Below, piece after piece: positions 304 through 52,620 of a stretch of 64,000 bases of DNA (its first letter is position 1; every line of letters starts with the position of its first letter). The DNA comes from Tannerella serpentiformis (GTDB lineage: Bacteria; Bacteroidota; Bacteroidia; Bacteroidales; Tannerellaceae), in NCBI RefSeq assembly GCF_003033925.1, contig NZ_CP028365.1, positions 1,798,001-1,862,000 of the forward strand, read 5' to 3'. The translations under genes were made by a program, and so were the position numbers. Below the pieces are notes generated by a model. The model did no database searches. It worked only from the letters and a program-made list of their open reading frames with translations, and was not told the DNA's origin.

Positions 304-471
304 CGGTTTACCCTCGAAAGTCTCCAACGACGCGATGCCCCCAATCCGTAAAACCCTCATCGTGCCGAACGACGCGACGGTCTCAACCCATAAAACTCCC
401 GCCGTGCTGAATGATGTGATGGTCTCAATTCATAAAAGCCCCATTATGCCGAACGAGGGCATGGCCTTGTG
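304..471 (+). repeat. 42-bp tandem repeat, left GC-rich arm (about 4 units)
   Basis: Three clear 42-bp units start at 346, 388 and 430, and a decayed one precedes them. Each contains a TAAAA run near its start followed by a core like TGCCGAACGA. The reverse complement of these units resembles the units at 771-1106, so the two arrays form inverted arms around the AT-rich array between them. No credible coding capacity. Confidence 0.8.
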
Positions 472-477
472 TCTGTT

Positions 478-740
478 GGTTTTTGGCGAGCGACTTTTTA
501 TATCTGTGGAAAATATCTCGATAATAAAATGGTGACCATTTATAAGTAGAGAGATTTTGTTGAGAATAAATCGTCCACTTTTTTATTCCCGATAAAGTCG
601 ATTGCCTATAAAAAAGTCACTCGCTTATTCCTGATAAAGTCTATTGGGTATAAACGGGTGACTTTTTATTTCCGATGGAGACTTGCTCACAATAAAAAAG
701 TCGCTGTTTTATTTCTGAGAGAGTTTGTTCAGTAATAAAA
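478..740. repeat. 42-bp tandem repeat, central AT-rich array (6 units)
   Basis: The AATAAA/TATAAA motif recurs at 523, 565, 607, 649, 691 and 734, which is a spacing of 42, 42, 42, 42 and 43 bp. Units are only moderately similar, so the period is better conserved than the sequence. A 24-bp imperfect inverted repeat brackets the array (478-501 and 735-758, core GGTTTTTGGCGAGCGACTTT on the left). Confidence 0.8.
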
Positions 741-770
741 AGTGACCCGCTAAAAACCGAAGCAACCGAG

Positions 771-1106
771 ACCATGCCCTCGTTCGACATGATGGGGCCT
801 TCATGTACCGAGACCATGCCCTCGTGCGGCATGATGGGGTCTTCATGCACCGAGACCATGCCCTCGTGCGACATGATGGGGCCTTCACACACCCGGACCA
901 TGCCTTCGTGCGACATGATAAACCCTTCACGCACCGAGACCGTGCCTTCGTGCGACATGATGGGGCTTTCACGCACCCGGACCATGCCTTCGCGCGACAT
1001 GATGGGGTCTTCACACACCCGAGCCGTGGCGTCGTTCGGCACGATGAAACCTTCACGAATCCAGCCCGTAGGGTCGTTGGACAGAATGAGGAATTTGCGA
1101 ATCGGC
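771..1106 (-). repeat. 42-bp tandem repeat, right GC-rich arm (8 units)
   Basis: Units begin at 771, 813, 855, 897, 939, 981, 1023 and 1065, exactly 42 bp apart, each opening with a form of ACCATGCCCTCGTGCGACAT. Several units carry the interrupted palindrome CATGCC-N7-GGCATG or a variant. Because 42 is divisible by three, all frames stay open and give spurious ORFs made of 14-residue repeats. The array is inverted relative to 304-471. Confidence 0.9.
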
Positions 1107-1183
1107 GCGGTCGTGTCGCGGGGCATGACAGGGGCGGATGAATTTGAGCGGTATAGCTGCATTCAGGAATTGAAACTGCTGCT

Positions 1184-1191
1184 TACATTTG
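1184..1191 (+). promoter_or_regulatory. -7 promoter box (TACATTTG) for the rseC-rnf operon
   Basis: TACATTTG matches TAnnTTTG and lies 39 nt upstream of the rseC start. It is the only good box between the repeat array and the operon. Confidence 0.5.
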
Positions 1192-1230
1192 CCGCCGTAT
1201 TGCAAACTCGATATAGCAATTGGGTTTATT

Positions 1231-1680
1231 ATGAAGAAATTTATTCAGCATCGTGGTATTGTAAGACATACCGGAGGAGGCCGTATTGTGGTCTGTATCG
1301 AACAGCAAAGCGCGTGCTCTGCGTGCCATGCCCGTTCGGCCTGCCTCGCATCGGACAAAAAGGAGAAACTCATTGAGGTGAAGGGCGAGAGCCGTCAGTT
1401 TGCTCCCGGGGAGGAGGTCATGGTCGTGGCCCAATCCTCGAGCGGCATGCAGGCCGTAGCCCTTGCGTTCGCCGTGCCCTTTGTGCTGGTGGTGGCTGCC
1501 GTATTTATCGGCGCCCGCCTGAGCGGAGGCGACGACGGCATCGGTGGACTCGCGGGGCTGGCCGTCCTGGCCGTCTATTACGCCCTGCTGTACGCCTTTC
1601 GGGAGAAGATCGGGCGACGGTTTTCATTCTCCGTCGCTAAGCTCGAAGCTGGCTCTCAGCTCGACACAGCTGCTTATTAA
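1231..1680 (+). CDS. rseC: SoxR-reducing system protein RseC family
   Basis: A 149-residue membrane protein. The cytoplasmic N-terminus carries the cysteine cluster of the family (CSACHARSAC plus an upstream Cys). Two hydrophobic segments follow near residues 65-85 and 90-112. RseC-type proteins accompany Rnf/Rsx complexes, which in E. coli reduce the iron-sulfur regulator SoxR; in Bacteroidota the partner is unknown and a maturation role for Rnf is equally possible. The ATG at 1231 (KKFIQHRG) is preferred over a start at 1189 because it fits family length and the promoter at 1184. The gene is 23 nt from rnfB and probably co-transcribed with it. Confidence 0.85.
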   Translation: MKKFIQHRGIVRHTGGGRIVVCIEQQSACSACHARSACLASDKKEKLIEVKGESRQFAPGEEVMVVAQSSSGMQAVALAFAVPFVLVVAAVFIGARLSGGDDGIGGLAGLAVLAVYYALLYAFREKIGRRFSFSVAKLEAGSQLDTAAY

Positions 1681-1703
1681 CCGCCAAATCAATCTTACAC
1701 GAA

Positions 1704-2657
1704 ATGTATATAGCGATCATTTTATTAGGAACGGTGGGGGCCATTGCGGCGCTCATCCTATTTGCGGTATCGAAGAAATTCGAGGTGCATGAAGATCCGC
1801 GCATCGGGCAGATACAGGAAGCCCTGCCGGGCGCCAACTGCGGCGGCTGCGGATTCCCGGGCTGCGGCGGCTTTGCCAACGCGTGCTTTAAGGCTGAGGC
1901 GCTCGACGGGCTGTATTGCCCCGTGGGCGGTCAGGACGTGATGAAGAAAGTGGCCGAGATCAAGGGCGTGGCCATGGTGGCTGCGGCACCGAAGATCGCC
2001 GTGGTGCGCTGCAACGGCACCTGCGAGGCGCGTCCGCGGACGAACACCTACGACGGCGCATCGAACTGCACCATCGCCGCCTCACTCTATCGGGGCGAGA
2101 CGGGCTGCTCGTTCGGCTGCTTCGGTCTGGGCGACTGCGTGGACGCCTGCGAGTTCGACGCCATCCACATCAACCCCGTGACACGCATCGCGGAGGTGGT
2201 AGAAGACAAATGCGTAGCCTGCGGGGCGTGCGTTAAGGCCTGCCCGACGAAGATCATCGAGCTGCGTAAGAAGGGGCCGAAGTCGCGTCGCATCTTCGTC
2301 TCCTGCATGAACAAGGACAAGGGCGGCGTGGCGCGTAAAGTCTGCTCGAACGCCTGCATCGGCTGTGCACGCTGCGTCAAGGAGTGCGCCTTCGAGGCCA
2401 TCACGGTGACGAGCAACCTGGCTTACATCGACGACACGAAGTGCCGCCTCTGTCGCAAGTGCGTCGTGGTCTGCCCCACGAAGGCCATCCATGAACTGAA
2501 CTTCCCGCCGCGTAAGGAGCCGAAGCCCGACGCACCGAAGGCCGCTGCTCCAGCCGCACTGTCGCTCGTGGAGGCCGCTCGCGCCAATACCCCGGCGGCT
2601 AAACCCGCTCTGGCTGAAACGGCTGTTGCCACTGCTGAACCAGCCGTGAAAGATTAA
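1704..2657 (+). CDS. rnfB: Rnf complex subunit RnfB (ferredoxin-like)
   Basis: Electron-entry subunit of the ion-pumping ferredoxin:NAD oxidoreductase. Residues 1-25 form a membrane anchor. The 4Fe-4S domain follows (GANCGGCGFPGCGGFA), and then several ferredoxin-type clusters, for example CVACGACVKAC, CIGCARCVKEC and CRLCRKCVVVC. At 317 residues it is much longer than E. coli RsxB (about 190) because of the extra clusters, as in other Bacteroidota. The C-terminal 60 residues are Ala/Pro/Lys-rich and probably disordered. It is the second gene of the rseC-rnfBCDGEA operon. Confidence 0.95.
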   Translation: MYIAIILLGTVGAIAALILFAVSKKFEVHEDPRIGQIQEALPGANCGGCGFPGCGGFANACFKAEALDGLYCPVGGQDVMKKVAEIKGVAMVAAAPKIAVVRCNGTCEARPRTNTYDGASNCTIAASLYRGETGCSFGCFGLGDCVDACEFDAIHINPVTRIAEVVEDKCVACGACVKACPTKIIELRKKGPKSRRIFVSCMNKDKGGVARKVCSNACIGCARCVKECAFEAITVTSNLAYIDDTKCRLCRKCVVVCPTKAIHELNFPPRKEPKPDAPKAAAPAALSLVEAARANTPAAKPALAETAVATAEPAVKD

Positions 2658-2685
2658 CCCACACCCACACAACGACCTGTCTATA

Positions 2686-4014
2686 ATGTACACTTTTAGA
2701 ATAGGGGGCATTCACCCCTCAGGAAACAAGTTATCGGCCGGGCGACCGATCGAGGCGATCGCGCCCACGGCCAAGGTGGTCATACCGCTCGGGCAGCACA
2801 TCGGTGCACCGGCTGAGGCGGTGGTGGCCAAAGGCGACAAGGTGAAGGTCGGGACGCTGATCGGCAAGGCCGCAGGCTTCGTTTCGGCCAACGTACACTC
2901 GTCCGTTTCGGGCACCGTGACCAAGATCGACACCATGCTCGACGCCGCTGGTCTGCCCAAGCCCGCAGTCTACATCAACGTCGAGGGCGACGAATGGGAA
3001 GAGACCATCGACCGCAGCGAGACCCTCGTCCGCGACTGCACGCTGTCCGCCAAAGAGATCATCGGAAAGATCGCTGCCGCCGGCATTGTCGGTATGGGTG
3101 GCGCCACCTTCCCCACGCAAGTCAAGCTCTCGCCTCCCCCGGGCAGCAAGGCCGAGATACTGATCGTTAACGCCGTCGAGTGCGAGCCGTATCTGACGTC
3201 GGACCACTCGCTGATGTTGGCCAAAGGCGAAGAAATCATCGTCGGGGTGAAGATCCTCATGACCGCCATCGACGTTCGCCGCGCCGTGATCGGCATTGAA
3301 AGCAACAAGCCCGACGCCATCAAGCTGATGAAGAAGTTGGCCGCCAAAGAGCAGGGCATCGAGGTGATGCCGCTCAAGATGCGTTACCCGCAAGGGGGCG
3401 AGAAGCAGCTCATCGACGCCGTGATTCGCCGTCAGGTGAAGAGCGGCGCACTGCCCATCTCGGTCGGCGCCGTGGTGCAAAACGTGGGCACCGTCTTCGC
3501 CGTCTACGAGGCCGTGCAGAAGAATAAGCCGCTCATCGAGCGCGTCATCACCGTCACGGGCAAGAGCGTTGTGAAGCCATCGAACTTTATCGCCCGCATC
3601 GGTACGCCGATCAGCACCCTGATCGAAGCCGCTGGCGGCATCCCCGAAGACACGGGTAAGATCATCGGTGGAGGCCCCATGATGGGTCGCACGATGATCA
3701 CGGACGATGTGCCGATGATGAAGGGTAGCTCTGGCATCCTGCTCATCCCACGCGCCGAGGCCATGCGCAAACCCATGCGTGACTGCATCCGTTGCGCCAA
3801 GTGTGTCGACGTCTGCCCGATGGGCTTGGAGCCCTATCTGCTGATGAACCTGGCCGTCCATAAGACGTGGGACGAGGCCGAAGAACATTACATCGTCGAC
3901 TGCATCGAGTGCGGCTCCTGCAGCTACACCTGCCCCTCGTATCGCCCGCTGCTGGACTATATCCGCATGGGCAAGGGCACGGTGATGGGCATCATCCGCT
4001 CGCGGAAGAAGTAA
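2686..4014 (+). CDS. rnfC: Rnf complex subunit RnfC (NADH/FMN-binding)
   Basis: Peripheral subunit that exchanges electrons with NAD(H) through FMN and iron-sulfur clusters. The 442-residue protein begins with the RnfC barrel-sandwich domain (GGIHPSGNK) and contains the nucleotide/FMN region VNAVECEPYLTSDH. Two C-terminal 4Fe-4S motifs are visible, CIRCAKCVDVCP and CIECGSCSYTCP. Length matches the compact Bacteroidota and Clostridium forms without the long repeat tail of E. coli RsxC. It lies 28 nt after rnfB. Confidence 0.95.
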   Translation: MYTFRIGGIHPSGNKLSAGRPIEAIAPTAKVVIPLGQHIGAPAEAVVAKGDKVKVGTLIGKAAGFVSANVHSSVSGTVTKIDTMLDAAGLPKPAVYINVEGDEWEETIDRSETLVRDCTLSAKEIIGKIAAAGIVGMGGATFPTQVKLSPPPGSKAEILIVNAVECEPYLTSDHSLMLAKGEEIIVGVKILMTAIDVRRAVIGIESNKPDAIKLMKKLAAKEQGIEVMPLKMRYPQGGEKQLIDAVIRRQVKSGALPISVGAVVQNVGTVFAVYEAVQKNKPLIERVITVTGKSVVKPSNFIARIGTPISTLIEAAGGIPEDTGKIIGGGPMMGRTMITDDVPMMKGSSGILLIPRAEAMRKPMRDCIRCAKCVDVCPMGLEPYLLMNLAVHKTWDEAEEHYIVDCIECGSCSYTCPSYRPLLDYIRMGKGTVMGIIRSRKK

Positions 4015-4072
4015 CCCCCCGAGAGACGAACAGACTTAGTTTTAATGTATGAACAGACAATAACCGGATAAC

Positions 4073-5029
4073 ATGGACTCCAAACTGATCATCTCTCCGT
4101 CGCCACACATTCATGGGGGCGATTCGATAAGCAAAAACATGTACGGCGTGCTTATCGCACTGGTGCCGGCCTTCCTCGTGTCGCTTTACTGCTTCGGGTT
4201 GGGCGCACTCGTCGTGACGCTCGTATCCGTCGCCTCGTGCGTCATCTTCGAGTATCTCATTCAGAAGTACCTCTTCAAGCGCGAGCCCACCATTGCCGAC
4301 GGCTCGGCCATCCTCACGGGCGTCTTGCTGGCGTTCAACCTGCCGTCCAACCTGCCCGCGTGGATCGTCATCCTGGGCGCACTCTTTGCCATCGGCGTCG
4401 GCAAGATGTCGTTCGGCGGATTGGGCAACAACATCTTCAACCCCGCGCTCGTGGGGCGTGTCTTCCTGCTCATCTCCTTCCCAGCACAGATGACGACGTG
4501 GCCCGTGGCCGGCGTCTTCCCCCTGACTTACACCGACGCGCAGACCGGTGCCACGACGCTCTCGTTGATCCATTTCACGAAAGACATTGCCGGCTTCGGC
4601 CCGTCAGCCATCGGACTGACCGGCGGTAGCCTCGGTGAGATGAGTGAGGTGGCGCTGCTCCTGGGCTTTGCCTACCTGCTCTATCGGCGTATCATCACGT
4701 GGCACATCCCCGTGGCCATCATCGGCACCGTGGCTGTGTTCACCACCATCATGTACCTCTTCAACCCGACCGAAGTCAACAACCCGCTGATCCATCTCAC
4801 CTCCGGCGGACTCATGCTCGGCGCCGTCTTCATGGCCACCGACTATGTGACCTCGCCCATGACCAAGCGCGGCTCGCTGATCTATGGCGCGGGCATCGGC
4901 CTCCTGACCGTGCTCATCCGCATCTTCGGATCCTACCCCGAGGGCATGTCCTTCTCCATTCTGATCTGGAACGGCCTCACGCCGCTGATCAACACCTACA
5001 TCAAACCCAAACATTTCGGAGGCAGATAA
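4073..5029 (+). CDS. rnfD: Rnf complex subunit RnfD (membrane flavoprotein)
   Basis: A 318-residue integral membrane subunit with about nine to ten hydrophobic segments. The TGAT motif at residues 158-161 corresponds to the SGAT-type site where FMN is covalently bound to Thr (here T161). RnfD is part of the ion-translocating core. The gene follows rnfC by 58 nt and ends 3 nt before rnfG, which points to coupled expression. Confidence 0.95.
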   Translation: MDSKLIISPSPHIHGGDSISKNMYGVLIALVPAFLVSLYCFGLGALVVTLVSVASCVIFEYLIQKYLFKREPTIADGSAILTGVLLAFNLPSNLPAWIVILGALFAIGVGKMSFGGLGNNIFNPALVGRVFLLISFPAQMTTWPVAGVFPLTYTDAQTGATTLSLIHFTKDIAGFGPSAIGLTGGSLGEMSEVALLLGFAYLLYRRIITWHIPVAIIGTVAVFTTIMYLFNPTEVNNPLIHLTSGGLMLGAVFMATDYVTSPMTKRGSLIYGAGIGLLTVLIRIFGSYPEGMSFSILIWNGLTPLINTYIKPKHFGGR

Positions 5030-5032
5030 ACG

Positions 5033-5701: not shown

Positions 5702-5712
5702 CCCCCCGGACT

Positions 5713-6294: not shown

Positions 6295-6306
6295 CCCCCC
6301 GCCCTT

Positions 6307-7980: not shown

Positions 7981-8385
7981 GTTTCAGCGCAGAATCGGTG
8001 TTTCTGAAGCATTCCCGAACGGTTTCAGCATAGAGTCGGTGTTTCTGGAGCATTCCCGCGTGGTATCAGTGTAGAATCGGTGTTTCTGGAGCATTCCCGA
8101 ACGGTTTCAGCATAGAGTCGGTGTTTCTGGAGCATTCCCGAACGGTTTCGGTACAGAATCGGTGTTTCTGAAGCATTCCCGCGCGGTTTCAGCGTAGAAT
8201 CGGTGTTTCTGAATCATTCCCGAACGGTTTCAGCGTAGAATCGGTGTTTCTGGAGCATTTCCGAACGGTATCAGCGTAGAATCGGTGTTTCTGGAGCATT
8301 TCCGAACGGTATCAGCGTAGAATCGGTGTTTCTGAATCATTCCCGAACGGTTTCGGTACAGAATCAGGGTGGGTTTCTGGAGTAT
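7981..8385 (-). repeat. 41-bp tandem repeat array (10 units), AGAATC/GTTTCT family
   Basis: Ten units carry the near-palindromic core AGAATCGGTGTTTCT at 7991 and then every 41 bp to 8360. The rest of the unit is TGGAGCATTCCCGAACGGT. The array fills the gap between two convergent genes and ends 7 nt before the miaA stop codon. Its reverse complement is the repeat family found at 52299-52620, 44 kb away. Confidence 0.9.
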
Positions 8386-9303: not shown

Positions 9304-9338
9304 TGGGTAAAGTGGGGAGGTTATCCTGTTCGCGAGGG

Positions 9339-9965: not shown

Positions 9966-10064
9966 AGTTAGAGGGTAGAGAGTGGAGGGTAGAGAATAGA
10001 GAGTAGGGGGTAGAGGTTGGAGAATAGAGAGTCGCCTCATGTACCCGGCTCTACCCTCTACCCT
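9966..10064. repeat. CTCTACCCTCTA-type short repeat cluster
   Basis: The gap between lpxA and the pRiA4b-type gene consists of GAGGGTAGAGAGTGGAGGGT-like runs followed by the complementary CTCTACCCTCTACCCTCTAT, so the two halves can pair. A similar run lies at 14657-14702. Nothing else is recognisable here. Confidence 0.7.
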
Positions 10065-13429: not shown

Positions 13430-13700
13430 CGTCGGCCGTTATGCTTGCTAAGAATAATAAGTCACGTGCATTCGGCTTATTATCCTTTGCGTGGATCGTA
13501 ATTGGATTGTTCATGGTTTATGATTCTTTGCTAGATATCGTGATCCAATCACAAATGCTTTATTTTCTCTTGCGAAAATCATAATCCTTTGGCGAATGGT
13601 TTATTATATTCCACAAGCATCGTAATCCTTTTGTGCATGATTGAATATCGCTATTTGAAGATCGTTATTCGAATGCACAAGGATTATGATTCCTAGAAAG
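13430..13700. repeat. Decayed AT-rich 41/42-bp tandem array
   Basis: Consecutive segments beginning with TTTATnAT are 40, 42, 41, 41 and 42 bp long and share a weak consensus (TTGC..., ATCGTAATCC, GCATG). The sequence is far less conserved than the period. It fills the gap between lpxD and the DUF4198 gene. The 73-codon ORF here (13293-13514, minus) overlaps the lpxD promoter and is not supported. Confidence 0.5.
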
Positions 13701-14656: not shown

Positions 14657-14702
14657 GGGGAGAGTAGAGGGTAGAGGGTGGAGAGTAGAGGGTGGAGGCG
14701 GG
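14657..14702. repeat. GAGGGTAGAGAG-type short repeat run
   Basis: A purine-rich run of alternating AGAGTAGAGGG and AGAGGGTGGAG units lies just upstream of the exporter promoter. It is the same type as 9966-10064. Confidence 0.6.
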
Positions 14703-14749: not shown

Positions 14750-15520
14750 ATGACTCACACCCAAGAAAGCCTCTCGTCGCTTTGCGATTTCATCGCCGAA
14801 TACGCCTCACACCTGATGGCGGCGGGGGTACACACGTCGCGTGTCATGCGCAACTCGAAGCGCATCGGCAGCTCTTTTGAGGCGGACGTGAAGATGAGCA
14901 TCCTTCACAAACACATCATTCTGACAGTGATCGACCGCACCACCTCGGAGCAAAGCAACCGGGTGGTGGAGGTGCCCCCGCACCCGATCAGCTTCGAGCA
15001 CAACGCCTCCTTGAGTGCCCTGAGTTGGGCCGCGGCGGACCGCCACCTATCGCTCGATGAGCTGTGGGCGGAGTACACACGCATCGTCTCGGCGCCCATG
15101 ATCCATCCGCTGTTTGTGCTGCTGTTGGTGGGCTTTGCCAACGCCTCGTTCTGCCGACTCTTCGGCGGTGATGCGGTCTCGATGGGCATCGTCTTCTCGT
15201 CCACCTTGACCGGCTTCTACCTCAAGCAACGGATGCAACAGCGGGGCATCAACCCCTATGTCACCTTCATTGTCTCCGCCTTCGTGGCCTCGCTCTGTGC
15301 CTCCACGTCGCTCATCTTCAGCACCACGTCTGACATCGCCCTGGCCACAAGCGTGCTCTACTTGGTGCCGGGCGTACCGCTCATCAATGGCGTGATCGAC
15401 GTCGTCGAGGGGCACGTCCTGACGGGCTTCGCACGCCTCACAGAGGCCGCGCTGCTGATCGTCAACATCGCCATCGGACTCTCTTTCACCCTGCTTTTAG
15501 TCAAGAGTAGCCTGCTGTGA
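14750..15520 (+). CDS. Threonine/serine exporter, ThrE N-terminal half (DUF1212)
   Basis: A 256-residue protein with a soluble N-terminal region and then about five membrane helices. The motif PGVPLINGVIDVVEGH near the C-terminus is characteristic of the ThrE family, which exports threonine and serine. In this phylum the transporter is split in two genes; this is the larger half. ATG at 14750 (THTQESLSS) is chosen because the upstream open frame is repeat DNA and the promoter lies at 14708. The stop abuts the start of the next gene. Confidence 0.85.
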   Translation: MTHTQESLSSLCDFIAEYASHLMAAGVHTSRVMRNSKRIGSSFEADVKMSILHKHIILTVIDRTTSEQSNRVVEVPPHPISFEHNASLSALSWAAADRHLSLDELWAEYTRIVSAPMIHPLFVLLLVGFANASFCRLFGGDAVSMGIVFSSTLTGFYLKQRMQQRGINPYVTFIVSAFVASLCASTSLIFSTTSDIALATSVLYLVPGVPLINGVIDVVEGHVLTGFARLTEAALLIVNIAIGLSFTLLLVKSSLL

Positions 15521-15522
15521 AT

Positions 15523-16014
15523 ATGCTGACGATCACCCTCGACATCCTCTCCGACGCCCTCTTTGCAGCCGTGGCCGGCATCGGCTTCGGGGCCATCTCC
15601 GATCCGCCCCTGAAGGCCTTCAAAATGATTGCCCTGCTGGCCGCGGTGGGCCATACGTGTCGCTTCTGCCTGATGACCTATGCGGGGATAGACATCGCCA
15701 CAGCCTCACTGGCGGCGGCGTTCCTCATTGGCTTCGGCAGTCTGTGGCTTGGCAAGAAGGTCTACTGCCCCATGACGGTGCTCTACATCCCCGCCCTGCT
15801 GCCGATGATCCCCGGACGATACGCTTACAACATGGTCTTCTCGCTCATCATGTGCCTCCAGCGGGTTAACGATCCCGAAGGACTCAGGCGCTACATGGAG
15901 ATGTTCTTCTCCAATGGGATGATCACCGTCACGGTCATCTTCTTGCTGGCCGTCGGCGCCACCTTCCCCATGTTCCTCTTCCCCGGTCGAGCCTTCTCCT
16001 TAACGCGCCATTGA
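15523..16014 (+). CDS. Threonine/serine exporter, ThrE C-terminal half
   Basis: A 163-residue membrane protein with about five hydrophobic segments, matching the ThrE_2/DUF3815 family. The segment MTVLYIPALLPMIPGRYAYN is the counterpart of the PG motif in the first half. A GTG at 15517 overlaps the previous stop; the ATG at 15523 is equally close and preferred. The two halves presumably form one transporter. Confidence 0.85.
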   Translation: MLTITLDILSDALFAAVAGIGFGAISDPPLKAFKMIALLAAVGHTCRFCLMTYAGIDIATASLAAAFLIGFGSLWLGKKVYCPMTVLYIPALLPMIPGRYAYNMVFSLIMCLQRVNDPEGLRRYMEMFFSNGMITVTVIFLLAVGATFPMFLFPGRAFSLTRH

Positions 16015-16845: not shown

Positions 16846-17496
16846 TCAGTAGCCAATGGTGAAGCGGGTGCGGTGATGTGCGGGGTGCTCGAGCTCATCG
16901 ACGAGGGCGGCTGCGTAATCGCGTACGGAGATGTGACTCTTGCCCGTAGCGTCCACGATCAAGTCGTCCTGGCCAAGGCGATACTTACCCGTCTTGCTCC
17001 CCTCAGCGTCGAACTCACCGGCGGGAGAAAAGAAGACCCAGTCGATGTCCGTTTCACGGGTGAGCGTGTTCAGGTAGAAGTCGCCGAGGGGGCGCACACC
17101 ATCCATGATCTCGGCAGGGATGGCGCCGGAGTCCACCACGCGCAGCCCCGGCTTAACGAAGAGGGTACCAGCGCCGCCGACAATGATCAGTTGGGGCACA
17201 CCGCTCCGCTTCGCTGCTTCGAGGATGCGCGGATAGTTCGTCTCGATCAGCCGTTTGATGTCGGGGTTAGCCCATCCGGGATTGTAGGCTGAGATAATGG
17301 CGTCCTTGCCACGTGCTAGGTCGGCCACCTTCTCCACATCGGCTACGTCAGCTTCTGCTGCCTCTACTTGGGAGCTCTTAGAGAGCTTGGCAGCGTTACG
17401 TACGACCGCCGTCACGTGGTGGCCGCGCTCTACCAGTTCGTTGAGGACGGCCGATCCAACGAATCCCGTCGCTCCGATTAAAATCACATTTGCCAT
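16846..17496 (-). CDS. NAD(P)-binding protein (atypical short-chain dehydrogenase)
   Basis: A 216-residue Rossmann-fold protein with the nucleotide-binding motif GATGFVGSAV at residues 8-17, then VTAVVRN and DAIISAY. It fits the NAD(P)H-binding/NmrA-like group, where enzymes act as quinone or flavin reductases or as redox sensors. It lacks a clear YxxxK pair. It is divergent from a HxlR regulator, a common pairing in which the regulator controls the reductase. Confidence 0.8.
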   Translation of the reverse strand: MANVILIGATGFVGSAVLNELVERGHHVTAVVRNAAKLSKSSQVEAAEADVADVEKVADLARGKDAIISAYNPGWANPDIKRLIETNYPRILEAAKRSGVPQLIIVGGAGTLFVKPGLRVVDSGAIPAEIMDGVRPLGDFYLNTLTRETDIDWVFFSPAGEFDAEGSKTGKYRLGQDDLIVDATGKSHISVRDYAAALVDELEHPAHHRTRFTIGY

Positions 17497-17729
17497 AATC
17501 TGGTTATCCTTTCTCTTTTTATAGGGTTACTGTGTCTGAGCCTCTGATTGGCGGTGCGAAGCCGTCTCTCTTTGACGAAGCAAAGGTGCCCGTGTTCGTC
17601 GGGCTGTGAAAGAAGGAACCGGAGGGTGCGTCAGTTTCTGGGAGGTAAGAATTGGGGCGGAATCAGCGGGGCAGTTTGGAAGATTAACCGAGATTAACGA
17701 GGGGGCTTGGCGCCGACTGTTTGCGCCTC

Positions 17730-21214: not shown

Positions 21215-21308
21215 GTAGGGGCGTATTGCATACGCCCTACCAAACGCCCTGCAAAGGGCGTGGGGGTAGACGATAAACGCATATGGGGCGTATGCAATAC
21301 GCCCCTAC
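21215..21308. repeat. 94-bp inverted-repeat element, copy 1
   Basis: The element has perfect 22-bp inverted ends starting GTAGGGGCGTATTGCATACG and an internal CGCCCTGCAAAGGGCG hairpin. It encodes nothing. About 100 bp of following sequence is also repeated after copy 2, so the duplicated unit is about 210 bp. Confidence 0.85.
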
Positions 21309-21424
21309 CTAGGTCCCTATCTGATAACCGATTAAACATGGAGAAATGAAATACGTATTCGTCTCTGATTGTCGGAGACAATAGGTAATACCTACCCAAG
21401 AAAACCTTATCTTTTTCCGGAAAT

Positions 21425-21518
21425 GTAGGGGCGTATTGCATACGCCCTACCAAACGCCCTGCAAAGGGCGAATGGGTAGACGTTGAATCTATATGGGGCG
21501 TATTCAATACGCCCCTAC
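21425..21518. repeat. 94-bp inverted-repeat element, copy 2
   Basis: Same length and layout as the copy at 21215, with the right end changed (GGGGCGTATTCAATACGCCC). The flanking stretch ending in ATGAAATACGTATT is shared with copy 1. Confidence 0.85.
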
Positions 21519-21559
21519 CCGGGTACCTATCTAATAATCGATTATACATGAAGAAATGA

Positions 21560-21976
21560 AATACGTATTAATCTCTCACTGTCCGAGACAATAGGAAACA
21601 CCTATCCAAGGAATCTGCCATTGTCTGAGGCATGGCGAAAAGGGACACGTATTCAGCTCTGATTGTCCGAGACAATGGGAAATACCTGGCCGAGGAATCC
21701 TCGGTTGTCTCTATCCATAATAACCCGCAAGACTTGGGAGTTAACGTTGTCCGAGACAATAGTAACCCTCAATTTTTAGACGGAACGTTCGTCTGCGCGA
21801 TCATAGTTTCGAAAGTTGGGAGTGAACGTTGTCTCAAGCAATCATAGCTCATAAGGTTCGGAGTGAATGTTGCTCAGAAAAATCATAGCTCGCAACGTTA
21901 GGTGTGAATATTGCCTGAGGCAATCGTAGCTCGGTGGGGGTGGAGGTTAACGTTGTCCGTGACAATCAGAGGTGGA
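21560..21976. repeat. 41/42-bp tandem array with ATTGTC-GAGACAAT palindromes (10 units)
   Basis: Core palindromes start at 21578, 21620, 21662, 21704, 21746, 21787, 21828, 21869, 21910 and 21952: spacing 42, 42, 42, 42, 41, 41, 41, 41 and 42 bp. The best copies are ATTGTCCGAGACAAT and ATTGCCTGAGGCAAT, both perfect 6-3-6 palindromes. A further copy lies at 21368 inside the duplicated unit. The array ends 27 bp before the promoter of the gene at 22059. Confidence 0.9.
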
Positions 21977-28580: not shown

Positions 28581-28943
28581 ATTGTACGATACAATCGCGA
28601 GAGACCCTTTGTGCCCATTGTATCGTACAATCGCGAGAGACCCTTTGTGCTCATTGTATCGTACAATCACTTGAAAAAAACTTTTTGGGCCGATTGTATT
28701 GTACAATGGCTTGAAAAAAACTTTTTGGGCTGATTGTATCGTACAATCGCTTGAAAAAAACTTTTTGGGCCGATTGTATCGTACAATCGCTTGAAAAAAA
28801 CTTTTTGGGCCAATTGTATCGTACAATGGCTTGAAAAAAACTTTTTGGGCTGATTGTATCGTACAATGGCCTGAAAAAAACTTTTTGGGCCCATTGTATC
28901 GTACAATTGAGGGAGAGCCTTTGGACCCATTGTATCGTACAAT
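28581..28943. repeat. 36/40-bp tandem array with ATTGTA-TCG-TACAAT palindromes (10 units)
   Basis: The 15-bp palindrome ATTGTATCGTACAAT (or its inverse) starts at 28581, 28617, 28653, 28693, 28733, 28773, 28813, 28853, 28893 and 28929. Spacings are 36, 36, then six of 40, then 36 bp. The linker CGCTTGAAAAAAACTTTTTG is itself nearly palindromic. The array lies between the helicase stop and the RNase H start, both on the minus strand. ORFs through it encode only repeated peptides. Confidence 0.9.
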
Positions 28944-28973
28944 CGAAAGGCGGAAGGGCTCTCCCCCGTGTAC

Positions 28974-35739: not shown

Positions 35740-36041
35740 GTCTCGCCACGGGACGAGACCAAAATGGCCGTTGAGATGTCGTCCCGCCGCGGGACGAGGC
35801 CAAAATGGCCGTTGAGACGCCCTCCCGCCACGGGACGGGCCCAAAATGGCGGTTGAGATGCTGTCCCGCCGCGGGACGAGGCCAAAATGGCCGTTGAGAC
35901 GCTGTCCCGCCATGGGACGGGCCCAAAATGGCGGTTGAGATGCTGTCCCGCCGCGGGACGGAGCTAAAATGGCCGTTGAGATGTCGTCCCGCCACGGGAC
36001 GGGGCTAAAATGGCGGTTGAGATGCTGTCCCGCCACGGGAC
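35740..36041. repeat. 41-bp tandem array with GTCCCG-CCG-CGGGAC palindromes (8 units)
   Basis: The palindrome GTCCCGCCGCGGGAC or a close form starts at 35740, 35781, 35822, 35863, 35904, 35945, 35986 and 36027, exactly 41 bp apart. The linker is GAGGCCAAAATGGCCGTTGA, with GGCC-AAAAT-GGCC giving a second small palindrome. The array lies between glsA and the toxin gene. ORFs through it are repeat peptides. Confidence 0.92.
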
Positions 36042-36085
36042 GGGGGTCGGGTGCCTACAACCTTCTCTGCCAGCAGAAGCTATAT

Positions 36086-42101: not shown

Positions 42102-42660
42102 GTGCCCCGTCCGACTCTCGGCAGACCTTCTGCCCGGATCACTATGCCTTGTAGAGCCGGTGTCTATATCATGAACACGTTGTATCACTTTTTAGAACCA
42201 CTGTTTTGAAGCCAAATAGGTGCTCAAAATCGTTTCCTCTACTGTCCATAATATAGACGGAATCATCCATCCTATTTGGTTCTTGTTTTGATTATAAACA
42301 GGATAGATAAGGCTTTTAGCGTCTATATTTTGTATATAAACGAGCTTATAAATCATTTTGATAGGATGTTTATAGATAAATCACGAGGTGAAAATGATAG
42401 ACTATCCTGTTTTGATCATGGACAAGCGTCATACATCTTTTTACTTGATGTCTGAGTTATAGACAGGGAATAAATTCTTTTGGACATACTGTTAATAGCA
42501 TAAACACCACATCTACAAGGCATAGTGATCCGGGCAGAAGGTCTGCCGCGAGTCGGATGGGGCATAGTGATCCGGGCAGAGGGTCTGACGGGAGTTGTAT
42601 GGGGTGAGTCAAGGCCGTCGAAGCGGATAAAGGGAGGCTCATGGGGTAGGTCAAGGCCGT
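42102..42660. repeat. Inverted GC-rich arms around an AT-rich core with about 42-bp periodicity
   Basis: The left arm (about 42102-42160) contains GCAGACCTTCTGCCCGGATC. Its inverse, GATCCGGGCAGAAGGTCTGC, appears at 42528-42547 and again in changed form 42 bp later. Between them lies about 330 bp of AT-rich DNA where ATAAAC-like motifs recur about 42 bp apart (42294, 42336). The layout copies that of 304-1106. No gene is visible between 41877 and 42782. Confidence 0.6.
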
Positions 42661-44607: not shown

Positions 44608-44625
44608 CCCTTAGCACATCGTCTC

Positions 44626-46510: not shown

Positions 46511-46850
46511 GCGCACCCAAGAACTGTGAAAAACAGCCCGCCTTTTTGACCGCGCACCCAAGAACTGTGAAAAACGGGCCGCCTTTTTGACCGCGCACCC
46601 AAGAACTGTGAAAAACGGGCCGCCTTTTTCGCCGCGCAGCCCGGAACGGTGCAAAACAGCCCGCCTTTTTCGCCGCGCAGCCCGGAATGGTGCAAAACGG
46701 GCCGCCTTTTTCGCCGCGCAGCCCGGAACGGTGCAAAACAGCCCGCCTTTTTCGCCGCGCAGCCCGGAATGGTGCAAAACAGCCCGCCTTTTTCACCGCG
46801 CAGCTCGGAACGGTGCAAAACAGGCCGCCTTTTTCATCGCGCAGGGTGGC
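46511..46850. repeat. 41-bp tandem array (9 units), GCGCAGCCCGGAACGGTGC family
   Basis: Units start at 46511, 46552, 46593, 46634, 46675, 46716, 46757, 46798 and 46839, exactly 41 bp apart. The first three carry CACCCAAGAACTGTG where later ones carry CAGCCCGGAACGGTG, so two sub-families sit in blocks. Each has AAAACAGCCCGCCTTTTTCG or a GGGCC variant. A 6-3-6 palindrome is not obvious here. It lies between pth and the S4 gene. Confidence 0.92.
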
Positions 46851-46913
46851 GGCTATGCAAACGGCGGCGCCTTTGGGGCGTTCCAGCCGTCGCTTTACGC
46901 CGCAGTTGGCCCT

Positions 46914-47495: not shown

Positions 47496-47597
47496 CTCTG
47501 AGTCATGTTTGAAGCACGAAGAAGGGGGAGGGATGCGCCGCTAAGCACGGGCACCCTCCCCCTCCTTGAATATTCACGAAATGATATCGGCCTGTTG

Positions 47598-48302
47598 TTA
47601 TTCGGCTGCCGGAGCCTCTTCGCCCTCGGTATGCTCTTCGCCCTCTTCGTCGAAGGTCTGTGCACCGGCGGCACTCTGAGCGGCACGCGTCATCTTCACG
47701 GCGCAAACCACAGCGTTCTTCGGACTCATCACTTCCACGTTCTCGAAGGTCAGCTCGCCGACCTTGATCACCTGTCCCAGCTCCAGCTTGTCTACATTGA
47801 CCACGAGCTTCTCCGGGATCTGCTCCGCATGACCTTTCACCTTCAGGCGACGCATAGCGTGGTTGAGCTTACCACCGGCTTTCACACCCTTGGCGTGGCC
47901 CACCAGCTCAACGGGCACGTTCATCACGATCGGCTTGTCGCCGAATACCTCGAGGAAGTCCAGGTGCAGGATGGCGTCCGTCACGGGGTGGAACTGGATG
48001 TCCTTCAAGATGGCGCGGTTGCGGCGTCCATCTTCCCAGTCGATCTCTACGAGGTGGATGTCTGGCGTGTAGATCAGCTTGCGGACACCGTCGAACGAGA
48101 CCGTGAAATCCGTTACGATAATGCCCATGCCACCTTCGATCTCAACCAGCTTTTCACCCGGCTTGAGCGTGCCTTCGTAGGGCAGCTTCACCGGTTCGTT
48201 GCCGTAGAGTACGGCGGGGATCAGTCCTTGTTTGCGCAACGCCTTGGTTGCTTTCTTGCCGAGGTCTTCCCGCGGCGTGCAGTTCAAATTGAATGTCTTC
48301 AT
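47598..48302 (-). CDS. rplY: 50S ribosomal protein L25 (Ctc/TL5 type)
   Basis: A 234-residue protein that binds 5S rRNA. The N-terminal L25 domain is followed by the TL5-type C-terminal domain (MNVPVELVGHAKGVKAGGKL) and an acidic tail rich in Glu and Ala. The length is standard for Ctc-type L25. A good -7 box lies 90 nt upstream. First gene of the rplY-pth-S4 group. Confidence 0.95.
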   Translation of the reverse strand: MKTFNLNCTPREDLGKKATKALRKQGLIPAVLYGNEPVKLPYEGTLKPGEKLVEIEGGMGIIVTDFTVSFDGVRKLIYTPDIHLVEIDWEDGRRNRAILKDIQFHPVTDAILHLDFLEVFGDKPIVMNVPVELVGHAKGVKAGGKLNHAMRRLKVKGHAEQIPEKLVVNVDKLELGQVIKVGELTFENVEVMSPKNAVVCAVKMTRAAQSAAGAQTFDEEGEEHTEGEEAPAAE

Positions 48303-48392
48303 TTTCCTTAAGCTATTGTGTTACTCAAAATCAGTCTTGCTCTTTCCGATTTCCCATCACACGTGTAGATAGGCTTTTCTTCAAAGCGGCGG

Positions 48393-48400
48393 CAAAAATA
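48393..48400 (-). promoter_or_regulatory. -7 promoter box (TATTTTTG) for rplY
   Basis: TAnnTTTG match on the minus strand 90 nt before rplY. It sits inside the inverted repeat AGCGGC...GCCGCT, which could be an operator or a leader hairpin. Confidence 0.55.
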
Positions 48401-48512
48401 AGCCGCTGTTTGGAATATGCAGGGGCCGATTAGGCCACCCGGAACAGCCTCCATCGTGTGTGCGAAGCATTCGGGGCGGGGGAAACGGGATGCAGGCGAT
48501 GCCACCGACGGC

Positions 48513-51500
48513 CTACTTGCTCTTCGCCTTCTCACGACGGGCAGCCTCCTTCTCACGCAGTGCCGCGCGGCGAGCCGCCTCTTTCTCCTTCAGGCGTTGC
48601 TTGTTGGCCTTCTCGCGCTCCTTACGCTCCTTCTCGCGCTGCTTCATGCGCTCGCGGGCCTCCTTCTCTTTCTGCTTACGCTGTGCCTCGCGCTCCTTGA
48701 GCTGCTGCTTGCGTTGCTCGGCGGCCTCCTGGCGTCGCTCGGCCTGGGTCTGGGCCTTCTCGCCTTGCGCCATACGTGCCTTGCGCTCTTCCAGTTCGCG
48801 TCGCTTCTTGAGGTATTCCAGCGTGATCTCTTTTGGCTTCACGAGCACCGTGTCCATGTCCACTTCGGGCGTGGCGGTGGTGTCGATTGCCGGGGGCTCG
48901 GTTGTCGCAGTGTCGGAGGGTAGGGACTCGGGCCGTGCCGTGGTGTCGGTCGGGAGGGGTTCGTCAGCCTGCTGCACCGGTTTGTTCTTGCGGCGGCGGA
49001 CGGAGGTAGCAGCTTGCTTCTTGGCCGCCTTCTCCTGCTTTTTCCGCTCCGCTTCGGCAGCCTTGGCGGCTTTCTCCTGCTTCTTCTTCTCAGCCTTAGC
49101 CGCCCTTTCCTGCGCTCGCTCCTCCTTCGTCTTCTTCTTTTTGACGGAGGCGGCGGACTGATCTTGTGTTATGGTGACGCTGTCCGTGGGGGCGATGGAA
49201 TCGGTAGCGTGGGGTTTCTCTGCGGGGATGGAGTCCTCCGGTTGGGCGGCGTCGATCGGTTGCGGCTCGTCCACGGTGGACTCGTCGGAGTCTTGCACAC
49301 GCTCTTTCACCTCATCGGCGGCTTGCTCCACGGCTTGGTCTTCACGCTTCGCCTCACGTTCGTCAGCGGCCACTTGGGTGCGCCAACGGGCCACCAACTG
49401 GGGCGCTTGTCGACCATAGACTTCGGCGAAGAAGGCCATGTAGTCCGATGGCGACTTGCCGTGCAGGAGGGTCTCGTAGTTCGCGTCGGAGATGGGGAAG
49501 AACATGACGGCGCGATCCACCTTGCGGGCGTATCCGTCGCGGGCGTAGATCATGCCGTAGTACTCGAGCACCTGCTGCAGGTTGTCGAAACCGCTGACGA
49601 TAAGCAGGCCGAAGCGGCCCGCCTCGTCGGTCGAGAGGTCGAAGCTCTTGACCTCAAAGTGCGCGAAGTTGTAGGCCGCCACAGCGTAGAGCAGGGCGTT
49701 CGCTTCGACGGCGCCTTTGGGGTAGAGCAACACCATGCGATGCGGCGACTCGGGTTCGTCGACGAAGGCGCGGGCAGAATCTAAGTCGGAGATCTCGCCA
49801 AACTCATCCGTACCGAAGCGCAAATCCCACTTCATGCCCGTCAGGCTACCCTGCACCAGCGCCCGCCCACGCAACACACCCTTCAGCATCTCGCTGGCCA
49901 GCTCCGTCACATCGGCCGTGGGATACTTCTCCACGAGCGTTTGCAGCGCCGACTTGAACGACGCCACGTTGCCGGACTGCACATAGGTGAGCGCCTCGAC
50001 GAACATGAACTTTGGCATCAGTGTGGCCAGCGGATAGGTGCGGCTGAACTCACGATAGCTGCGGCGCACGAACGACGTGTCGCCCTTGAGGTAACGGTTG
50101 TACGCCTGCTCATAAATCGAATCCTGCACACGGTCCATCATGCGGATATGGTACTCATAGTTCGGATCGGCGACGGCGGTGGCATAGTCGCTCTCGGGGA
50201 AGGCCTTCACGAGGCGGTCGCGCGAGCGTGTCTCGAGCGGCTTGTCCTTATACCGAAGGCCCATGAGGTAAGACTGGAAGTAGTAATCCATCCGGTACTT
50301 GTTGTCCGGGAAGCGCCGCTCCAGCTCCTCGAACGTCTCGACCGAGAGCGGCTTATTCTCCAGCTTGTCCTTGTAGATCATGCCCATGTTGTACAGCCCG
50401 TCGGCGATGATGACGTTCGAGGCCTCCACGTCCTCCGCCGTGAGAGGGATCTGCTGTAGGTAATACTCGCGCGACTTGGGGTCGGACGAGATGGAGTCTT
50501 GCAGTGCGTCGGTCGAGTCGGTGGAGGCGATCGGGTTGCCGTTGGCGTCGAGTTGCGGCGTGTCGGGCAGGTTACCGTCGGCGTTGTCGGTGGACGAAGC
50601 CAGCGGCATGGCCTTGTTGCGGCGACGCCAATCGTCCTGATTGACACGCTTGCCCCACTTGTTTTGGAACTGGGTCTTGCCCTGCGCCACGGTCTGCTCG
50701 TTGTAGAAATAGAAGCCACCATTGCTCCCGTTGAGCAGTGGCATCTGCGGCGTCTGTATGTTCTGCCGCTGGCGCTGAAAGTCATTGCCGCGGCTCTGTT
50801 GGTCGGCCAGGTAACGCTCCTTGTCGGCCTCTTCGGCCTCGCGTTTCTCTTTCTCCTTCACCTCCGCGATGATCTTATCGATCACCGCCAGCCGCTCCTT
50901 TTCGGGCATGCGCGCCAGGGCCTGAAGGCTGTCTTGCAGGTGTACCGCCTCGACGTGCACCACCAACTCGTCGAGCACGGACGAGAGGCGGGCGACGCGT
51001 TCGTAATCCCGATACTCCCGGGGCATGGCCGAGAGTGCGCCGCTGAAGCAGGGTTGCGCCCGGACGTAATCCTTTTGCGTGAAATAGATGTCGCCGAGCT
51101 TGATCTGGCAGATGGCTAGGTCGAGGCCGTTTTGCACGCTCTTCTCCACGCCCTGAGCGTAGGCGGCGATGGCCTGCGCGGTGTCGTGCCGACTCATGTA
51201 GACGTCGCCGATGGCCATATAAACTTGGTCGAGGTAGTTTTTGTTTTTGTCGCTCTTGGACATGCGTCGGAGCATGCTGAGCACCTGTTGCCAACGCGAC
51301 GGCGGCAGTACTTCAGCCTGACGGATGCGGGCGGCAAACTCCAGCTCGTAGGGCGGGTTGGCGGAGGCCACGCGACCGAACTCGCGGTAGGCTTCGTCGT
51401 TCCGACCCGCCTCGGTGAGCAGTTGCCCCAGCAGGTAGCGCATGCGGGTGCGTTGCCGACGGTTGCGCTCCGTGTCGATCACCTTCTTGAGGGCCGGGAT

Positions 51501-52178
51501 GGCTTGCTCCGTGCGGTTGCTCTTGACCAGAAAGTCGGCATAGACGCGGTCGTAATCCTTCCGATTGGCGGCGGGGAAGCCGTTCTTCTCGAGCCGTTCG
51601 AGCGTCGATTCCGTCTCGTAGAGCCAGCCCATCTCGGCGTAGCAGCGTGCGCGGCCGATGTGCGCTGCGGCCACCACTTCGGGCTCGGTGGCGTAGTGGC
51701 GGGCGATGTAGGAATAGGTGGCTGCGGCTTGGAGGAAGTCGCCGTTGTAGAACTGCCCCTCGGCCACCAGCATCCAGCAATGCTTCAGGAAGGGGTTGTA
51801 CTCCTCGCGGTTCTGCATGGCCACTTCGCGGGCGTTGCCCTGCCAGCCCGGTTTGCGGACGGGCTTTCTCTGGATCGAATGCTGTTTGATGGCCTTGTTA
51901 CCCTTCAGGATGGCGCGGTCGAAGGGCCCTCCGGCCGACTGTTTCTCTTTCGGCAGCGCGCTGACGGGGTGCATGAGGATCCGCTCGGTGTAGTTCTCGT
52001 GATAGCTGTTTAGCATCGTCTCTAACTGCTCGTCGAAGGAGGTTTTGCCGTTGAAATACGTATTGTAGCGCGCCGTGAAGGCGTGCCAGCGGCGTGTGCC
52101 CGCTGTGTTCTTTTTGGTGCTGCATGCCACGGCGGTCAGCAGCAGGGCGAAGCAAACGATGGTGTAATATCTTCTCAC
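48513..52178 (-). CDS. porW: PorW/SprE-type TPR lipoprotein of the type IX secretion system
   Basis: A 1221-residue protein with a lipoprotein signal (LLTAVACSTKKN) and a GTG start. The first 200 residues, including TRRWHAFTARYNTYFNGKTSF and the ALPKEKQSAGGPFDRAILKG region, match SprE/PorW. Tetratricopeptide-like helical repeats continue to about residue 850. The last 250 residues are an extreme Lys/Glu/Arg/Ala coiled stretch. PorW is needed for T9SS function in Porphyromonas gingivalis, and SprE for gliding in Flavobacterium. Its gene stands alone between repeat-bearing gaps. Confidence 0.88.
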   Translation of the reverse strand: MRRYYTIVCFALLLTAVACSTKKNTAGTRRWHAFTARYNTYFNGKTSFDEQLETMLNSYHENYTERILMHPVSALPKEKQSAGGPFDRAILKGNKAIKQHSIQRKPVRKPGWQGNAREVAMQNREEYNPFLKHCWMLVAEGQFYNGDFLQAAATYSYIARHYATEPEVVAAAHIGRARCYAEMGWLYETESTLERLEKNGFPAANRKDYDRVYADFLVKSNRTEQAIPALKKVIDTERNRRQRTRMRYLLGQLLTEAGRNDEAYREFGRVASANPPYELEFAARIRQAEVLPPSRWQQVLSMLRRMSKSDKNKNYLDQVYMAIGDVYMSRHDTAQAIAAYAQGVEKSVQNGLDLAICQIKLGDIYFTQKDYVRAQPCFSGALSAMPREYRDYERVARLSSVLDELVVHVEAVHLQDSLQALARMPEKERLAVIDKIIAEVKEKEKREAEEADKERYLADQQSRGNDFQRQRQNIQTPQMPLLNGSNGGFYFYNEQTVAQGKTQFQNKWGKRVNQDDWRRRNKAMPLASSTDNADGNLPDTPQLDANGNPIASTDSTDALQDSISSDPKSREYYLQQIPLTAEDVEASNVIIADGLYNMGMIYKDKLENKPLSVETFEELERRFPDNKYRMDYYFQSYLMGLRYKDKPLETRSRDRLVKAFPESDYATAVADPNYEYHIRMMDRVQDSIYEQAYNRYLKGDTSFVRRSYREFSRTYPLATLMPKFMFVEALTYVQSGNVASFKSALQTLVEKYPTADVTELASEMLKGVLRGRALVQGSLTGMKWDLRFGTDEFGEISDLDSARAFVDEPESPHRMVLLYPKGAVEANALLYAVAAYNFAHFEVKSFDLSTDEAGRFGLLIVSGFDNLQQVLEYYGMIYARDGYARKVDRAVMFFPISDANYETLLHGKSPSDYMAFFAEVYGRQAPQLVARWRTQVAADEREAKREDQAVEQAADEVKERVQDSDESTVDEPQPIDAAQPEDSIPAEKPHATDSIAPTDSVTITQDQSAASVKKKKTKEERAQERAAKAEKKKQEKAAKAAEAERKKQEKAAKKQAATSVRRRKNKPVQQADEPLPTDTTARPESLPSDTATTEPPAIDTTATPEVDMDTVLVKPKEITLEYLKKRRELEERKARMAQGEKAQTQAERRQEAAEQRKQQLKEREAQRKQKEKEARERMKQREKERKEREKANKQRLKEKEAARRAALREKEAARREKAKSK

Positions 52179-52298
52179 GTCCTCTCTTTTTCTCTCTGGT
52201 TTGAAGTGATATGATAACTGGTTGCGCGTGTGTTTATTGTAGGGATTTGCGTGTCCCAGACGGCTTACGCGATGGAGCGCCTCCGGGGGATCGGGGAG

Positions 52299-52620
52299 AC
52301 GGCGCCTCTGCGCTGATACCGTTTGGGAACGGTCCAGAAACCGTGATTCTACGCTGATACCGTTCGGGAATGCTCCGGAAACCGTGATTCTGTGCTGATA
52401 CCGTTCGGGAATGCTCCAGAATCAATGATTCTGCGCTGATACCGTTCGGGAACGGCCCAGAAACCGTGTTTCTGCGTTGATACCGTCCGGGAATGCTCCA
52501 GAATCAATGATTCTGCGTTGATACCGCTCGGGAACGGCCCAGAAACAGTGATTCTGCGTTGATACCGCTCGGGAACAGTCCAGAAACCGTGATTCTGCGC
52601 TGATACCGATCTGGGAATGC
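52299..52620 (+). repeat. 41-bp tandem array (7-8 units) with AGAATC-AAT-GATTCT palindromes
   Basis: Cores start at 52336, 52377, 52418, 52459, 52500, 52541 and 52582, exactly 41 bp apart. They include AGAATCAATGATTCT (twice) and AGAAACCGTGTTTCT, all perfect 6-3-6 palindromes, plus mixed forms such as AGAAACCGTGATTCT. The linker is GCGCTGATACCGTTCGGGAA. It is the reverse complement of the family at 7981-8385. Confidence 0.92.

Follow-up and report, generated by a model that had tools for sequence, protein, structure and literature searches.

A common period in intergenic arrays

The window analysed here, a stretch of 64,000 nucleotides of the Tannerella serpentiformis chromosome (contig NZ_CP028365.1, positions 1,798,001 to 1,862,000), carries tandem arrays in its intergenic gaps and raises the question of what could hold the length of a repeat unit constant while its sequence is left free to vary. 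An initial annotation of this DNA had listed at least nine gaps with tandem units, spaced by 41 or 42 bp in nearly all of them and mostly unrelated in sequence from one locus to another. According to our analysis, the period of this class of arrays is locked at 40-42 bp in this genome, in units that are mostly unrelated. When autocorrelation at lags 40-42 was compared with 200 dinucleotide shuffles of each gap, all nine gaps exceeded the maximum of their shuffles (z 5.1 to 31.7), and no array was found by Tandem Repeats Finder (TRF) in ten dinucleotide-shuffled windows (1-kb blocks). Six of the nine are clean arrays of 40-42 bp and three, at 13430, 21560 and 42102, are decayed; since the decayed arrays retain lags near 41-42 or multiples of them (124, 82), the period is not confined to young arrays.

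The genome-wide excess at these lags, which the initial annotation had proposed, was borne out as far as the genome was sampled. The sample consists of the window and 20 stretches of 20 kb across the same chromosome, 464 kb altogether or about 15% of the single contig of 3,013,500 bp. Leaving out arrays of fewer than 2.5 copies or shorter than 60 bp, TRF gives 79 arrays in it, 62 of them with a period of 39-43 bp; outside the window there are 71 arrays, 54 with a period of 40-43. The 62 arrays of period 39-43 add up to 18,537 bp, or 4.0% of the sample, and 57 of them are intergenic, as judged by gene calls from a purpose-written dicodon script. The median copy number of the arrays is 6.8 and the maximum 31.7. 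The mean period is 41.43 bp with a standard deviation of 0.75 (n=63 arrays, period 39-44), and a period of 42 bp is as common as one of 41 bp. Independently of TRF, the autocorrelation spectrum of gaps of at least 150 bp, with lags of 15-70 allowed, was strongly periodic in 67 of 167 gaps and in none of the 167 shuffled gaps used as a control; the best lag was 40 (6 gaps), 41 (27) or 42 (26) in 59 of the 67.

Kinship of the units

In regard to sequence, 71 arrays (periods 39-43, 21, 22 and 84) form 44 clusters, of which 28 have a single member, and only 41 of 2,485 unit pairs score at least 15, the maximum over 400 shuffled comparisons being 10. The claim of unrelated units therefore holds for most loci but not for all of them: the array at 7981-8354 has four related arrays elsewhere in the genome, that at 52307-52617 (in reverse) among them, and the array at 35740-36045 is related to six other places. 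Related arrays were found on both strands. Two families were followed further. A BLAST search of the genome with family B gives 61 matches, many of them overlapping, and 28 array units were obtained from 30 of these loci; family C has 13 matches at seven places, with 8 units. Furthermore, the motif AAATGGC is shared by 7 of 42 unique units, with 0.3 expected, so some remote kinship exists; here and in the counts of doubled units, second dyads, dyad centres and curvature below, near-duplicate arrays were removed by a manual list based on the clusters. The one array compared with plasmid records (28581) and the one compared with phage records (35740) gave no match there.

Dyad symmetry within the units

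The short palindromes noted in five arrays of the window turned out to be more general, units tending to have a dyad whose arms measure 5-10 bp. The best dyad of a unit has arms of at least 6 in 39 of 62 units, with 5.2 expected, and of at least 7 in 24 of 62, with 1.1 expected, though the best arms are shorter than 5 in 18 of 62. In relatives, arms of at least 6 occur in 11 of 39 units (1.9 expected). These arms are constrained, being steadier than the linker within arrays and showing compensatory change between related arrays. In the 30 arrays of the own genome with at least 4 copies, identity of at least 80% and arms of at least 6, divergence from the array consensus is 146/2900 (5.0%) in arms and 495/5283 (9.4%) in the linker, and arms diverge less in 22 of the 30 (Wilcoxon p 0.0017). 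Likewise, 16 arrays of relatives (at least 4 copies, identity at least 75%, arms at least 5) show 76/1326 (5.7%) in arms and 130/1210 (10.7%) in the linker, with lower values for arms in 12 of 16. Within the 53 arrays of our genome left after these own-genome filters and the removal of duplicates, double changes in arms are complementary in 44 cases and not in 4, these being cells and not independent events.

Between related arrays, the backbone is kept and the arms are exchanged, as in GTCCCG-CCA-CGGGAC at 35740, replaced elsewhere by GTCATG-TCG-CATGAC and ATCGTG-TCG-CACGAT. For the covariation analysis, 23 of the 28 units of family B were aligned (two duplicates and three units of 42 letters were left out) and 7 of the 8 units of family C (one unrelated unit was left out). 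The aligned arms form 94.0% and 92.9% standard pairs, respectively, whereas with the structure slid out of place the share is at most 57.8% and 50.0%. These shares of pairs and the covariation scores of the two families were reached by 0/500 shuffles each, in a shuffle control that ignores relatedness.

Another feature of the dyads differs between species. In our genome, 21 of 27 unique units whose arms reach 5 or more have the dyad centred on a base, in the relatives taken together 5 of 20 (Fisher p 4e-4), and this odd/even difference is easier to reconcile with the spacing of protein half-sites than with a hairpin in general. For this genome-wide class, in which the period is locked, most units are unrelated and dyads are frequent, the action on spacing and symmetry proposed by the initial annotation is upheld, and it bears on these and not on sequence.

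Arrays in related genomes

The sampling was extended to parts of 13 genomes of the same genus, all of them draft assemblies. TRF gives 44 arrays there, with periods of 21 (18 arrays), 42 (10), 23 (5), 41 (3) and others (8), among which there are one each at 20 and 22 bp; the 23-bp arrays are present in G004, G010, G014 and G046. Among the 39 arrays with a period of 20-24 or 40-43, one of 741 pairs is clearly related (score 33.5) and one marginally (13.0). The autocorrelation of sampled gaps, with its excess at 40-42 in our genome, had a divided outcome in relatives, where the spectrum was taken without G043 and G046, though both were sampled for TRF arrays. In five genomes (G010, G040, G004, G014 and G016), 35 of 158 gaps are periodic, 16 at 20-23, 17 at 41-42, one at 63 and one at 66; in such a spectrum, lag 42 can also be the peak of a 21-bp array. 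In the six others, none of 72 gaps is strongly periodic, and TRF gives three weak arrays in two of the six. Of 39 arrays of relatives, 13 are no more than 500 bp away from the end of a contig, in contrast to 4.5% of the sequence (887 kb, 60 stretches), so array counts in these drafts are probably too low.

A DNA search of 40 sister genomes gave no match to family B, which makes it unlikely that the shared period was inherited along with the sequence. One 41-bp unit of G014 resembles the family (scores 17.5 and 15.0). Elsewhere in the order, in genomes of other families, periodic gaps number 8 of 122 (16, 20, 21, 42 and 43 bp, and three at 52 bp). Three 52-bp arrays, seemingly related to one another, stand within 20 kb of one such genome (L262, G026:C20, at 53-248, 15465-15701 and 17105-17552), together with arrays of 16, 17, 20 and 24 bp.

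Two gaps were followed across species. The gap 3′ of folE holds an array in our genome and at 4 of 29 other loci (21, 22, 23 and 23 bp), with a 7-bp array at one more, so that five species (L104, L113, L119, L122, L127) carry arrays of 41, 22, 21, 23 and 23 bp, differing in sequence, at this place. The gap 3′ of pth holds an array in our genome and at 1 of 30 other loci (21 bp), with units of 7 or 8 bp arrayed at two more. Neither gap holds an array in G031, G014 or G033, which are the nearest relatives. Given the array densities, we do not count these cases as positional conservation. In Porphyromonas gingivalis, BrickBuilt_11 is also described as adjoining folE (PMC4596501).

A module of two helical turns

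Second dyads bear on the inner structure of the unit. Of 24 unique units in which the first dyad has arms of at least 6, 13 also have a further dyad that does not overlap it and whose arms reach 4 or more, with 6.2 expected; the distance between the two is 18-20.5 bp in 9 of the 13, compared with a share of 38% under the null. Taken with the 21-bp periods seen in relatives, this makes one dyad per two helical turns likely. As to whether the unit of 42 is a doubled 21, there is no clear signal: at lag 20, the match over all unique units is 0.250 vs 0.251, and at lag 21 in the 26 units of 42 bp it is 0.273 vs 0.252, with a standard deviation of 0.018. In G010 and G016, though, some units of 42 bp resemble a 21-mer in two copies.

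What could hold spacing and symmetry

The explanation that we put first, with somewhat less than even confidence and as a candidate only, is that the arrays are locally homogenised intergenic minisatellites in which a two-turn module and its dyad are held by a dyad-recognising protein. Arrays would be born, copied to new gaps and homogenised there by slippage or unequal exchange, while the constraint would act on the geometry of the arrays and not on their sequence. The module of about 21 bp would correspond to two turns of B-DNA with roughly one dyad each, so that successive dyads would come to lie on the same face of the helix. Spacing and symmetry could then be locked by a symmetric, dimeric protein, probably of the nucleoid. 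Such a putative dimer would read the dyad, or the structure formed by it, with little base preference and would pack side by side along the array. In its favour are the locked period in unrelated units here and in the array-bearing sister genomes, the dyads with their steadier and covarying arms, the second dyads and the odd/even difference between species.

Several observations weigh against this protein. A dimer that reads bases cannot bind all arrays, the dyad sequences being too varied. Predicted curvature, calculated from wedge angles, is significantly above mononucleotide shuffles (z 0.63, standard error of the mean 0.24) but does not exceed dinucleotide shuffles (z 0.22, standard error 0.18), and it was dropped as a cause for that reason. 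The copy number of HU-family proteins was also rejected, as it does not track array density, with 5 copies in our genome, 6 in G010, 5 in G040 and 6 in G004, and 5 and 8 in the array-poor G009 and G042. To these are added the 18 units with short arms, and the double arm changes of relatives, 2 complementary and 3 not. Two of five covariation measures are unexceptional in both families B and C; for pairs with a double change the shuffles give 38/500 and 237/500, and for further pair types 173/500 and 286/500. For the second dyads, the signal is of modest size and comes from a second test, the first having been a cruder profile with z of only about 2. Finally, the arrays seem dispensable in the genus, unless those of the six genomes with no strongly periodic gaps were lost in assembly, and the G014 unit indicates that unit families may not be strictly private to a species.

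The next explanation, close behind in rank and plausible although we lean to doubt it, does without any binding protein. Mismatches between the arms of a hairpin can be repaired by template switching within it, a process known as quasi-palindrome correction. The arrays could thus be neutral minisatellites in which units that fold on single-stranded DNA slip more, self-complementary units expand and arm mismatches are mended in the hairpin. Such slippage accounts for dyads of any sequence, for the low divergence of arms and for complementary double changes, and it fits the indifference to gene orientation, a family absent from the sister genomes searched and the higher-order periods of 82, 123 and 126 that TRF also reads in the window. 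It explains the dyads equally well as the protein does, but not the period: alone it would leave 21/42 unset, and with it the scarcity of periods between 24 and 40, and the odd/even difference of dyad centres between species is not accounted for either. Common descent, with one ancestral array spread in the genome and the genus, its length inherited and its sequence diverged under concerted evolution, is improbable. The existence of families B and C, in both orientations, the AAATGGC motif in 7 of 42 unique units and the likeness of the G014 unit to family B are what such a spread would produce, but 41 of 2,485 pairs is little for it, family B is without match in the sister genomes, and the species differ, 21 vs 41-42. 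Divergence beyond recognition should also have widened the lengths past the observed standard deviation.

A hairpin-rich RNA, be it a regulatory transcript, a terminator or a sponge, was among the causes suggested by the initial annotation and is very unlikely. One array folded as RNA gives z -4.95, and single arm changes in co-directional gaps are G-T in 42 cases and A-C in 26 (p about 0.07, a rough estimate). The 57 intergenic arrays, however, stand between genes of all orientations (-- 21, -+ 16, ++ 12, +- 8) and are distributed much like the gaps of 200 bp or more in general (51, 32, 30 and 19), by which terminators or promoters were also rejected as a class. Relative to co-directional genes, family B is sense in 7 cases and antisense in 5, and family C in 1 and 3, so no orientation bias was found; Rfam at gathering score gives 0 matches within the window. 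Least likely for the class as a whole is that the arrays are the cargo of non-autonomous IS5-type elements, that is, miniature inverted-repeat transposable elements (MITEs) like PgRS/MITE464 or BrickBuilt, though part of the arrays may have such an origin. The same periods of 41, 23 and 22 are described in P. gingivalis (PMC4596501), and the arrays here are likewise intergenic, with dispersed families. A flank piece of at least 40 bp is common to an array and the array of another gap in 19 of 62 arrays, and the flanks on either side of an array match each other in inverted orientation more often than by chance (at least 12 bp in 4 of 62, with 0.8 expected; at least 10 bp in 11 of 62, with 4.6 expected). 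IS5-type ends (GAGACY.TTGCA type, at most 1 mismatch), on the other hand, occur at the background rate, 1 in 31 kb of array flanks and 16 in 464 kb, the flank comparison gave no leader or tail common to the whole class, and within one family the flanks of five arrays are visibly different. Copying together with neighbouring genes was also observed. The array pair L035:15290 / L040:269 was copied within a duplicated segment of more than 1.5 kb, which bears genes and a 40-bp array (L035:14001-15530 and L040:269-1801; 97.6% over 1,533 bases).

A broader claim is possible but on the doubtful side: that a genus-wide, sequence-blind ruler of 21 bp builds or maintains intergenic arrays whose dyads are spaced by two helical turns, with periods of 21, 42 and rarely 63, and of 40-42 here. 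The arrays, if this is true, would amount to a chromosome-wide set of landing strips in helical phase, written by every array-bearing species in unrelated copies of its own. If a protein stands behind the arrays, it would count as a bacterial nucleoid factor whose cues are spacing and dyads. Intergenic minisatellites are usually handled as single families or typing markers. In the arrays described here, unit sequence is free while length and symmetry are not, by which geometry is separated from sequence and the question of what fixes the period of a tandem repeat becomes directly testable. With arrays at the contig ends of drafts, they are probably under-seen in metagenome assemblies.

Arrays and further repeats of the window

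The first gap of the window holds a 42-bp array of 3.1 copies at 326-456 and another of 6-7 copies at 765-1057, both found by TRF, and between them, at 494-764, a degenerate, AT-rich 42-bp array of about 6 units that was recognised in the unit display (z 10.2 vs shuffles). The part at 765-1019 was scored inside an open reading frame by the gene caller; frames stay open with a 42-bp unit. The array at 7981-8354 (41 bp, 9.1 copies) lies between an aldo/keto-reductase-like gene and miaA, which are convergent. Upstream of lpxD, the decayed array at 13430-13700 was recognised by autocorrelation at lags 41, 83 and 124, with 124 as the best and a match of 0.42 at lags 40-42 vs 0.30 in shuffles. The gap 21560-21976 (match 0.41 vs 0.27 at these lags; best lag 82) contains a weak 41-42-bp array at 21729-21976. 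The array at 28581-28950 has a period of 40 bp, with 36-bp variants at the edges and a clean part at 28653-28907; its unit carries the dyad ATTGTA-TCG-TACAAT and, about 21 bp off, a second dyad, AAAAACTTTTT, and its cluster includes five further arrays, with the same dyad in three. At 35740-36045 there are 7.5 copies of a 41-bp unit, read also at 82, with the dyad mentioned above. Upstream of a DUF4492 gene, the decayed 41/42-bp array at 42102-42660 (match 0.385 vs 0.27 at lags 40-42) retains a clean 42-bp stretch at 42519-42604. The last two arrays both have a period of 41 bp, one with 7.9 copies at 46521-46844, between pth and an S4-domain gene, and the other, read also at 123, with 7.6 copies at 52307-52617, 3′ of folE and upstream of porW/sprE, where the unit has the dyad ACCGTTC-GG-GAACGGT. 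Apart from those for which another source is given, these arrays were delimited by TRF and autocorrelation, and for the one at 28581 by unit display as well.

Other repeats were also observed. A second class is built on the palindrome GGGGCGTATTGCATACGCCCC and occurs both dispersed and arrayed at 84 or 210 bp, each a multiple of 42; its sites are 21215-21610 in the window, L039:16014-16371, and L041:319-1019 and 2042-2256, and no dispersed non-coding words are commoner in the sample than its 14-mers. Arrays of heptamers (TAGAGGG type) are present at 9969-10032 and 14659-14698 in the window, where TRF reads them in 21-bp steps too, and at L022:18790-18894 and L032:15860-15930. A 31-bp array (CCCGGCAAACTTCGCTGGCGTCC...) lies at L024:17747-17935, and similar-looking single dispersed copies of an element with GGCGTCAGGGACGCCGGCCAA stand at 9337 and 28985 of the window.

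Comparison with known systems

No title or abstract describing such arrays was found in a literature search, most subscription papers being outside its reach. Clustered regularly interspaced short palindromic repeats (CRISPR) were set aside, as the window arrays repeat the whole unit and have no spacers. Repetitive extragenic palindromic (REP) sequences and bacterial interspersed mosaic elements (BIME), which go with REP-associated tyrosine transposases (RAYT) of the Y1 type, are likewise intergenic palindromic repeats in many copies, but the units here are not one family. A Y1 transposase was also rejected as the cause of the arrays, since no Y1_Tnp match was found in the array-bearing G004 (93% complete), G014 and G016 (99%); the sole match in our own genome is a 155-aa open frame at G000:C1:1380004-1380351. 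Plasmid iterons and partition-site repeats are helically phased direct repeats of about 21-22 bp that are bound by dimers. Iterons, however, are one sequence at one locus, whereas here the sequences differ between most loci.

The closest likeness is found in P. gingivalis, for which tandem direct repeats of 41, 23 and 22 nucleotides (nt) are described (PMC4596501), and in view of these the initial statement that no described family has such properties was too strong. As far as the accessible text of that source goes, each element type has one unit family and the period is left unexplained. PgRS/MITE464 likewise has 41-nt tandem direct repeats, in about 10-20 dispersed copies (PMC4596501); compared by its description there, it is one family with IS5-like ends, whereas a 15% sample of our genome holds 44 clusters with no such ends. 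BrickBuilt is a 23-nt minisatellite within a MITE, always intergenic and with 1 to 22.8 copies, which differs in length between strains, has predicted stem-loops and for which bidirectional promoter activity is reported in the same text (PMC4596501). The trait common to BrickBuilt and PgRS, an intergenic tandem unit of 22, 23 or 41 nt, is also that of the arrays described here. According to the same description, however, BrickBuilt is a single unit with a leader and a tail, present in 19 copies that make up 0.44% of the genome (PMC4596501), while arrays of period 39-43 make up 4.0% of our sample and most of their units are unrelated.

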